Below the pieces are notes generated by a model. It saw nothing but the letters and a program-made list of their open reading frames with translations. It did not search any database and had not been told where the DNA came from. A program made the position numbers and the translations under genes. A stretch of 64,000 bases of DNA from Bradyrhizobium sp. CCBAU 53338. Its GTDB lineage: Bacteria; Pseudomonadota; Alphaproteobacteria; Rhizobiales; Xanthobacteraceae. The DNA lies in the NCBI RefSeq assembly GCF_015291665.1, contig NZ_CP030048.1, positions 3,410,001 through 3,474,000 of the forward strand, read 5' to 3'. This document shows positions 40,553 to 43,076 of the stretch, piece by piece. The stretch's first letter is position 1. Each line of letters opens with the position of its first letter.

Positions 40553-42073
40553 TCACCTCGGCAGCTTCGAAATCGCTTCGCTCAGCTCGTGGATCTCATA
40601 CGGCTTGCGCAGGATCGGGAAGTCGCCGCGGACGCCGGCGGCGGCTTCGCTGTAGCCGCTTGCGAGCAGGATCGGCAGTTCGGGATGGGTCTGGCGCAGA
40701 TGATGGGCGAGGCCGAGCCCGTCCATCTTGCCGGGCATGACGATGTCGGAGAAGACAAAGTCGACGCCGTTGTTCTCGAGCTCGCGTAGCGCGGATTCCG
40801 CATCCGCAACCCGGCGCACGTGATAGCCGAGCTGTTCCAGCAGGCCGATGCTGACGATGGCGACGTCGGGATTGTCCTCGACCAGCAACACCGTGCCGCT
40901 GCCGCGCACTGGCAGCGTCTCAGGTGGTTCGCTCAGTGCGGCTGCGGTCGCGCGCGGCAGCAGGATGGTGAAGGTCGTGCCCTTGCCGAGTTCACTCGAG
41001 ACCTTGACCGTGCCGCCGGCCTGATGCGCAAAGCCGTGCACCTGTGACAGGCCGAGGCCAGTGCCTTTTCCGACCGGCTTGGTCGTGAAGAACGGCTCGA
41101 AAATCTTGTCGACCACGTCGGAGGGGATGCCGAGCCCGGTATCGGCGACGGTGATCGCGACGTATTCGCCGCGATGGAGCGGATCGTCCAGCACGATGTT
41201 ATGCGCGCCGATGGTGACCGTGCCGCCGTCGGGCATGGCATCGCGCGCGTTGATGACGAGATTGAGCAGTCCAGTCTCGAATTCCGAAATGTCGGCCTTG
41301 ACCGGCCAGACGTCGCGCCCGATGTCGAAGGCGAGGCGAACCGCGCTGCCGACGCCGGCATGGAGCACCTCGCGGATCGCCTCGATGCGATCGCCGAAAC
41401 GGATCGCCTGCGGATTGACGCTCTGCCGCCGCGCAAAGCTCAAGAGTTGCCCCGTCAGCGCGGCGCCGCGCTTGGCGGCGGTCTCGATCGCCAGGATCGC
41501 ACGCTGGAATTTCGAATCGTCAGGGTCACCCTTCTTCAGAATGTGAAGGCTGCCGCTGATGATCATCAGCAGATTGTTGAAGTCGTGCGCGACGCCGCCG
41601 GTGAGCTGGCCGAGGGCGTCGAACTTCTGCGACTCCGCAAGCTGCGTCTGCATCGCCTCGAGCTTGATCTGGGTGTTCCGGCGCTCGGTGATGTCGCGGG
41701 TGATCTTGGCAAACCCGACCAGCGCCCCGTCCTCGTAGATCGGGTCGATGATGACACTCGCCCAGAAGAAGGTGCCGTCCTTGCGGACGCGCCAACCTTC
41801 CTCCTCGTAGCGTCCCTGGTCGCGCGCGATGCCGAGCGCACGGGCAGGCTTGCCGTTGGCCCGGTCGGTCTCGGTATAGAAGCGCGAGAAATGCTGGCCG
41901 AGAATCTCGTCTGGCGAATAGCCCTTGATCCGCTCGCCGCCGATGTTCCAGCTCGTGATGATCCCGTTGGGATCGAGCATATAGAGGGCGTAGTCCGCGA
42001 CTCCCTCAACCAACAGCCGGAAACTCCGTTCGCTTTCGAACAAGTCTCTCTGTTGACTGGACTTTTTCACCAT
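40553..42073 (-). CDS. PAS hybrid sensor histidine kinase/response regulator
   Basis: 506 residues from the ATG at 42073; the frame continues to a TTG at 42157, which is upstream of the predicted promoter. One PAS domain (about 10-140; [23 protein letters not shown]), HisKA with [13 protein letters not shown] (His near 162), HATPase_c ([38 protein letters not shown]), and a C-terminal receiver ([13 protein letters not shown]; Asp in [14 protein letters not shown]). It is soluble. A strong AGGTGGGG site precedes the ATG, and an exact EcfG promoter places transcription start about 20 bases before it. Confidence 0.9.
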
Positions 42074-42097
42074 TCCGGACCCCACCTCGACGGGGGC

Positions 42098-42140
42098 AAA
42101 CGTTCCAGAGGGCGTTTGGTTCCAGGTTTCTGGAACGTTT
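42098..42140 (-). promoter_or_regulatory. EcfG-type promoter within nested inverted repeats, hybrid kinase at 40553
   Basis: On the minus strand GGAAC (42123-42119), 16 bases, then CGTT (42102-42099), matching the EcfG consensus exactly. Around it are perfect 12-base arms AAACGTTCCAGA (42098-42109) and TCTGGAACGTTT (42129-42140), and inside them GTTCCAG-N4-CTGGAAC (42119-42136). The inverted repeat could let a second regulator bind over the promoter. Confidence 0.65.
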
Positions 42141-42221
42141 TTAGGCAAATCAAGCAAACGGTATGCAGGAGGCGAGGCGGCGTGACGGCGGTCGACGCCT
42201 TCGAGGCGATCCTGTGAGATG

Positions 42222-43076
42222 TCAGATGGCGGCCACGCCCCGGAACGTCGCGGCTACCGCGCGCAGTGCCGCCAGCTTGGCGGGATCGCTGACCTTCGAA
42301 TGCAGCATCACCTTCGATCTGCCGAGCTTCGGCAGCTTGTGCGTGGAACCGATATCGATCAGCCCCGGAGGCGCGATCCGCCGTGCCAGCGGCGCCACAG
42401 CAAGGCCAGCCAGCGCGGCCGCAACGACGGCAGTAACGCCGCCACCGACAAAGCGCTCGCGCCAGGCGATGCCGGCCTTGTCGAGCGCGCGCACGGCGAT
42501 CGCGCGCACCCCGCAGGGTGGGGCGAGCGTCGCAAGCGGCAGTGCTTCGCCCTTCGGCAGCGTGAAGCGTTGGGAGGCGAACCAGCCGAATTCGTCCTCG
42601 GTCAGCTTTTCGCCGTCGCGGCGGCTACCTTCCTGGCGAACGATCACCGCGTCCAACCCTCCCGCGTCATAGGCATCCTGCATCTCGCGCGAGAAGCCGA
42701 TGGTGACGGCGAGAGTCAGGTTGGACGACATCGCATGCAGCCGTTCGAGCAGCGGCACCAATTCAGGGCCCGCCGCATGGTCGGAGATGCCGAGCGAGAG
42801 TGATTGCGTAGCGGGTGCCTCACCCGACAGCGCACGGTCGTGTGCTGCCATCAGCGCTCGGGCGCGATCGAGGAAGCTCGCGCCCTCGGCGGTGAGCCGA
42901 ACCGCGCGCGGCGAGCGTTCGACGAGGCGTTTGCCCAGCAGGGTTTCCAGCCGCTGAAGCTTGAGGCTGACCGCCGCCTGCGTCGTGCCGAGCACTTCTG
43001 CGGCGCGGGTAAAACTGTGGAGGTCGGCGACCAGCAGGAAGGCTTTGATGGTGGCGATGTCGAGGGTATCTGTCAT
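42222..43076 (-). CDS. LysR-family transcriptional regulator
   Basis: 284 residues. The N-terminal helix-turn-helix (IATIKAFLLVADLHSFTRAAEVLGTTQAAVSLKLQRLETLLGKRLVERSPRAVRLT, residues 7-62) is textbook LysR, followed by a two-lobed co-inducer domain (SLGISDHAAGPELVPLLERLHAM and GLDAVIVRQEG). It is divergent from the tautomerase gene with a 111-base gap and most likely controls it. Confidence 0.93.
   Translation of the reverse strand: MTDTLDIATIKAFLLVADLHSFTRAAEVLGTTQAAVSLKLQRLETLLGKRLVERSPRAVRLTAEGASFLDRARALMAAHDRALSGEAPATQSLSLGISDHAAGPELVPLLERLHAMSSNLTLAVTIGFSREMQDAYDAGGLDAVIVRQEGSRRDGEKLTEDEFGWFASQRFTLPKGEALPLATLAPPCGVRAIAVRALDKAGIAWRERFVGGGVTAVVAAALAGLAVAPLARRIAPPGLIDIGSTHKLPKLGRSKVMLHSKVSDPAKLAALRAVAATFRGVAAI

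Follow-up and report, generated by a model that had tools for sequence, protein, structure and literature searches.

A conserved candidate sigma-EcfG promoter precedes an orphan hybrid histidine kinase gene in Bradyrhizobium, within an inverted repeat that is most likely coincidental

In the stretch of 64,000 nucleotides (nt) of Bradyrhizobium sp. CCBAU 53338 analysed here (contig NZ_CP030048.1, positions 3,410,001 to 3,474,000, hereafter the window), a hybrid histidine kinase gene with an EcfG-type promoter in front of it has a LysR gene and a convergent acylphosphatase gene as neighbours (Table 1). A sequence-only reading of this locus had called the kinase an orphan and, indeed, neither a response-regulator nor an Hpt gene lies directly beside it. 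The exact GGAAC-N16-CGTT motif that the same reading placed on the minus strand, about 26 bases before the ATG at 42073, was recovered at 42123–42099 (GGAACCAAACGCCCTCTGGAACGTT, spacer of 16 nt), with 25 nt separating CGTT from the kinase ATG (42073–42071). The assignment of the start codon to this ATG on the strength of promoter and ribosome-binding site also holds, the promoter being conserved (see below) and GAGGTG lying 9 nt before the ATG, a position occupied by GAGGCGGGG in many close relatives. A start at the TTG farther upstream in the same frame (42157) was rejected, since from there the frame crosses the promoter and orthologue matches start at or near the ATG. A consensus scan of 41950–42350 gave no sigma-70-like promoter, and an Rfam scan of the window at the gathering threshold retrieved one tRNA and nothing else.

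Table 1. Position of the features at the kinase locus in the window
Feature	Position	Strand	Basis
Hybrid histidine kinase gene, 506 aa, PAS-HisKA-HATPase_c-REC	40553..42073	-	Pfam
Ribosome-binding site GAGGTG, 9 nt 5' of the ATG	42083..42088	-	Sequence
-10 element CGTT of the EcfG promoter	42099..42102	-	Sequence; prescribed by the search pattern in the 55 site-bearing rows
-35 element GGAAC of the EcfG promoter	42119..42123	-	Sequence; likewise prescribed by the search pattern in these 55 rows
Conserved TTGCCTAAAAA, beginning 25 nt upstream of GGAAC; candidate activator site or UP element	42138..42148	-	Conservation
Weaker upstream box TGCATACCGTT (TGCATACCGTC in relatives), 44 nt before GGAAC	42157..42167	-	Up to 3 mismatches, any position, in 30 of 55 rows
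Repeat arm AAACGTTCCAGA, overlapping the -10 element; taken as incidental	42098..42109	+	Not conserved
Repeat arm TCTGGAACGTTT, upstream of the -35 element; taken as incidental	42129..42140	+	Not conserved
Possible scar DAFEAIL-stop, resembling the end of the divergent operon's epimerase	42194..42217	+	Similar DNA beside LysR; weak as a protein match by itself (7 of 10 residues, E 2.7)

Conservation of the promoter was assessed in 68 orthologue rows, namely L002–L039 (38 rows, from a listing of 80 loci) and L142–L171 (30 rows); the loci L040–L081, at 46% identity or less, served only as background for the inverted-repeat count reported below. Seven rows in which the match starts inside a longer frame or is cut (L029, L031, L032, L033, L034, L036 and L171) were set aside; with five duplicates merged, the other 61 yielded 56 different upstream regions. 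An exact GGAAC-N16/17-CGTT was found in 55 of these 56 regions, beginning 47–56 nt before the inferred start, compared with 0.125 expected after base shuffling. The promoter is thus more than chance, a conclusion for which the motif alone would be insufficient, and the proposal of an EcfG-type promoter in front of the kinase gains support from the very alignment of orthologous upstream regions that the sequence-only reading had put forward as a check, as far as the two hexamers are concerned. Conservation extends to the adjoining bases: GGAAC is followed by C in 41, A in 12 and G in two of the 55 rows, and then by A in 54, while after CGTT a T is found in 53 and a further G in 47. Among the rows set aside, an exact site stands near a start in L031 and L036, and L171, which represents the same gene as L200, carries a site with one mismatch. 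The scanned stretch of L029, L033 and L034 contains no exact site, and L032 is truncated; what it contributes to the 68 rows of the repeat count is not a true upstream stretch.

The association with the kinase was also evident when whole loci were scanned (31 of the 38 named loci L002–L039, 279,169 bases, with L029 and L031–L036 left out), every kinase having a site at its start. Here the script reported 30 sites at a kinase start and three elsewhere, one of which, in L038, is a kinase promoter too (the match in this locus starts six codons late), leaving only two true non-kinase exact sites. As a separate observation, a T nine bases past CGTT (42090, minus strand), near the expected transcription start, is identical in 55 of 55 rows.

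The second conserved element of the region is TTGCCTAAAAA, which was found with up to two mismatches, 23–26 nt before GGAAC, in 40 of the 55 rows. To describe its distribution, rows are distinguished by gene neighbourhood: a MarR-family gene was found in 31 of the 68 rows (marR class), in 24 the LysR gene is adjacent and there is no MarR match, and 13 are unclear, several of them coming from short or non-syntenic loci. Within the clade at 82–92% identity the element is kept in 37 of 40 rows, that is in 24/25 of the marR class, 12/13 of the LysR-adjacent and 1/2 of the unclear ones; outside this clade the figures are 2/3, 0/10 and 1/2, respectively. Seven of the ten LysR-adjacent rows outside the clade (L160, L161, L164, L165 and L168–L170) have TTCGTTAAA at the same -25 spot, and six of these seven have TTCGTTAAAAA. 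Column conservation upstream of GGAAC (40 rows, ungapped) is low from -75 to about -46, slightly raised up to -30, high from -27 to -15, where TTGCCTAAAAA lies, then low and raised again from -10 to -8; a single A at -16 is identical in 40/40 rows. The exact sequence TTTGCCTAAAAA occurs once in the genome, so the element is not a general mark of EcfG promoters. Its A-run and the nearly fixed spacing are suggestive of an activator site or an UP-like element. We also considered that it might be the promoter of the operon headed by marR and divergent from the kinase in relatives, which is less likely because a TTGACA lies, by eye, nearer to marR in these relatives and because the element is kept in 12 of the 13 close LysR-adjacent rows without a MarR match. 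In a distant clade (L161, L164, L165, L168 and L169), AACGKACCGTTTCG-like motifs, some of them repeated, were seen upstream of the EcfG promoter, perhaps as the operator of another regulator.

The promoter is embedded in an inverted repeat whose arms (42098–42109 and 42129–42140) are 100% complementary and 19 nt apart, with an inner stem GTTCCAG/CTGGAAC at 42119–42136, so that the earlier description of perfect 12-bp arms with an inner GTTCCAG palindrome is accurate to the base. The meaning then attached to this symmetry, an operator for a second DNA-binding protein or a duplicated promoter half-site, was not sustained. The 12-bp repeat is present in only one of the 68 upstream rows, the window's own (L142), and the arms share with relatives only their overlap with conserved elements, namely the AAA of the upstream A-run and the CGTTT of the -10; TTGCCTAAAAA in turn overlaps the repeat only at its outer three A:T pairs. 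Pairing between the arms was then counted over their 12 positions in 40 rows of the 82–92% clade (the window and 39 relatives). At a fixed offset the window scores 12, the relatives 6.05 on average with a maximum of 9, and swapped arms 6.03 (standard deviation, sd, 0.15; 200 shuffles). With the best of five offsets the relatives reach 7.18 (maximum 9) and swapped arms 6.89 (sd 0.12). This excess is small, leaves the relatives far below 12 and may be explained by the kinship of the rows. The arm part of the proposed alignment check thus failed. The genome scan for the arm, also proposed beforehand, gave three occurrences of the exact sequence, two of these at this locus. Perfect 12-bp repeats with 3–30 nt between the arms are moreover common, with 59 in the 718,672 bases of the 80 loci (82 per Mb), many of these loci being the same region in related species; in the window, 11 raw repeat matches reduce by eye to six distinct places. 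A terminator-like hairpin on the plus strand (42119–42136; one found, shuffle mean 0.5) was treated as part of the same coincidence rather than as a separate feature. The inverted repeat around the promoter is therefore most likely a coincidence, at least as judged by comparison among relatives, and illustrates that an eye-catching palindrome can be noise. If the promoter receives a second input, TTGCCTAAAAA is a better candidate for it than the repeat.

The genes phyR, nepR and ecfG of the corresponding regulatory pathway are present in this genome. NepR is located at G000:C1:6576287-6576385 and is adjoined by EcfG (L179:5452-6000) and, in divergent orientation, by PhyR (L179:4190-5014), each with fitting Pfam domains. 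The locus thereby resembles the alphaproteobacterial sigma-EcfG promoters (group ECF15 of the extracytoplasmic function, ECF, sigma factors) of the PhyR-NepR-EcfG general stress response in two respects, the presence of these three genes and a GGAAC-N16-CGTT at promoter distance. It adds the conserved TTGCCTAAAAA about 25 nt upstream, which the passages considered on those systems do not mention.

Taken together, we favour, with a probability of roughly 0.85, the reading that a single conserved sigma-EcfG promoter would switch on a probably cytosolic hybrid histidine kinase under general stress and that the 12-bp repeat is a functionless coincidence of this strain. Several observations weigh against it. 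One of the 56 distinct regions, that of the Nitrobacter orthologue L035, is without the site, and the rows are related, so that 55 conserved sites are not 55 independent events; the conservation evidence is strong, yet short of 55-fold independence. In the 8.28-Mb genome the exact N16/17 motif is not enriched, with 130 matches (64 + 66) as compared with 161 (83 + 78) for a reversed control. The 12,001 bases around phyR, nepR and ecfG contain no exact GGAAC-N15-18-CGTT, so that autoregulation of EcfG is not visible by the exact pattern. The free-offset pairing of the arms described above also belongs here. In the window itself, three motif matches were counted with N15-18 spacers (shuffle mean 1.74; 27 of 100 shuffles reach three). 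In this genome the exact EcfG motif carries little weight by itself, and it is conservation that settles the case.

Three other explanations were weighed. That the inverted repeat is a real operator, whose arms a second protein such as the adjacent LysR or a MarR-type regulator would bind over the -35 and -10 elements, is suggested by the way the perfect arms bracket the promoter and by the MarR-family gene divergent from the kinase in many relatives, and the free-offset pairing moved our very low estimate for it slightly upwards. It is nevertheless hardly credible in view of the single row out of 68 with the repeat, of fixed-offset pairing indistinguishable in size from that of swapped arms and never above 9 of 12 in any relative, and of the frequency of such repeats; the symmetry is neither conserved nor covarying, apart from that small excess, the palindrome TTTCTGTCATRACAGAAA, located where marR starts in relatives, differs in sequence, and the window has no MarR match upstream of the kinase.

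GGAAC-type -35 elements are used by other ECF groups too, and the GGAAC/CGTT pair might accordingly be read by an ECF sigma factor other than EcfG. We regard this as very unlikely, as the motif is present letter for letter in 55 of the 56 rows and is identical to the published EcfG1 motif of R. etli, given as GGAAC-N16-CGTT (PMC3892343). Somewhat less remote, though still unlikely, is an arrangement of two tandem promoters, the EcfG one and an upstream vegetative one formed by the TGCATAC and TTGCCTAAAAA blocks: both blocks are conserved to some degree and a basal supply of the sensor ahead of stress would make sense, but the consensus scan for sigma-70-like promoters found none in 41950–42350, the nearly fixed distance between block and GGAAC (23–26 nt in 40 rows) would be needless for an independent promoter, and TGCATACCGTC has more than three mismatches in 25 of the 55 rows.

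Under the favoured reading of a single sigma-EcfG promoter, we infer that stress would induce the kinase through EcfG. In the established pathway, whose genes are present here, stress leads to phosphorylation of PhyR, which then takes up NepR and sets EcfG free. RNA polymerase carrying EcfG would recognise GGAAC-N16-CGTT and start a leader of about 20 nt, possibly assisted, at nearly fixed spacing, by TTGCCTAAAAA, whose role could be that of an activator site or of an UP-like contact with the alpha subunit. The PAS-HisKA-HATPase-REC protein would accumulate, its receiver might pass phosphate to an unlinked Hpt or response regulator, and the kinase may in this way supplement the stress state with feedback or a second layer of signalling. 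A broader proposal, which we put forward tentatively, is that the PAS-HisKA-REC hybrid subfamily in Bradyrhizobium and its kin could be wired as an output of EcfG and not as an input to it, the general stress response thereby building a second phosphorelay layer of its own, with TTGCCTAAAAA at this locus tuning the promoter through the alpha subunit or an activator. That EcfG governs regulators is in principle already known, since in Sphingomonas melonis EcfG is described as also controlling regulatory proteins that likely fine-tune the response (PMC6599016). In B. diazoefficiens, EcfG controls more than 100 genes and is required for efficient symbiosis (PMC8092242). The novelty, if borne out, would lie in the roles of an EcfG-driven hybrid kinase and of TTGCCTAAAAA. 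Being conserved and preceded by an EcfG promoter, the kinase offers a concrete candidate for an EcfG-controlled function.

As to the protein, several Bradyrhizobium species have a kinase about 92% identical to this one. Seven Pfam families were matched at E values up to 0.001, including PAS, HisKA (PF00512), HATPase_c (PF02518) and Response_reg. As befits a hybrid histidine kinase, an alignment of 10 rows shows no variation at H163 or at D400, D443 and K490 of the receiver. No HWE_HK or HisKA_2 model is among these seven families, which sets the protein apart from the HWE/HisKA2 type of PhyR kinases. The domains occupy residues 19–501, which should leave no room for a large membrane part, and the kinase is probably cytosolic. 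A LOV photoreceptor was considered and rejected, there being no cysteine at the LOV position: S63, within FSRF, stands where chain 8a7f has the cysteine of CRFLQ, which we take to be the photoactive one, and the position holds S or A in the 10 aligned rows. The nearest NCBIfam family is that of the NF010076 (PRK13557) histidine kinases, matched over residues 48–501 with 373.6 bits, below its cut-off of 631 bits. The kinase core also resembles CckA, but the score with the Brucella-type CckA model (341.7 bits) is far under the cut-off of 1000 bits; among solved chains, 5idm, named CckA, gave 108.5 bits and the best match, 5idj, named only Histidine kinase, 161.1 bits. With the kinases that activate the general stress response (Paks, PhyK and LOVHK) the protein has in common that a sensor kinase is tied to this response, and PhyK is likewise termed orphan (PMC12354254). 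It differs from them in being a HisKA (PF00512) hybrid and in lying, to judge from its promoter, downstream of EcfG.

The exact site is also found in more distant members of the family. A paralogue in the same genome (L181, G000:C1:2099769-2102700), 47% identical and with two PAS domains, has an exact EcfG site 27 nt ahead of the ATG. In addition to the 29 orthologue rows L142–L170 there are 28 distant places, and for 20 of them, this paralogue included, the upstream stretch was taken. Nine of the 20 have an exact site near a start (L189 and L190 carrying the same site), four of the other 11 have a one-mismatch site before the chosen start and seven have none; shuffling of these 11 gave a mean of 0.49 one-mismatch sites, and 0 of 300 shuffles reached the four seen. 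Control by EcfG looks common, though not universal, in this kinase family, as far as promoter motifs can tell.

The gene neighbourhood varies on the side of the promoter, which is itself the same in both neighbourhood types. In the marR class, as exemplified by L003 (1178-3847), the MarR gene is the first of an operon that also encodes a DUF4166 protein and an epimerase with DUF1731 and that lies between LysR and the kinase, divergent from the latter; in L026 the operon, as judged by its MarR match, is instead downstream of the kinase, and in L039, L144 and L147 the MarR match is partial. The window is of the LysR-adjacent type, in which the divergent operon is missing, and seven of the 24 rows of this type have an epimerase match elsewhere in the locus. 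The possible epimerase remnant in the window and the longer epimerase piece retained in L005 suggest a deletion of the divergent operon. At the start of the MarR gene in relatives (L003:3830-3860 and equivalents) the near-perfect palindrome TTTCTGTCATRACAGAAA overlaps the gene start, with TTGACA nearby, and is likely an autoregulatory operator. Finally, L005 (JAUEPE010000045.1) is titled Frankia sp. RB7, and its kinase is 92% identical to the Bradyrhizobium one and has the same neighbours; the name of this record is probably wrong or the assembly contaminated.
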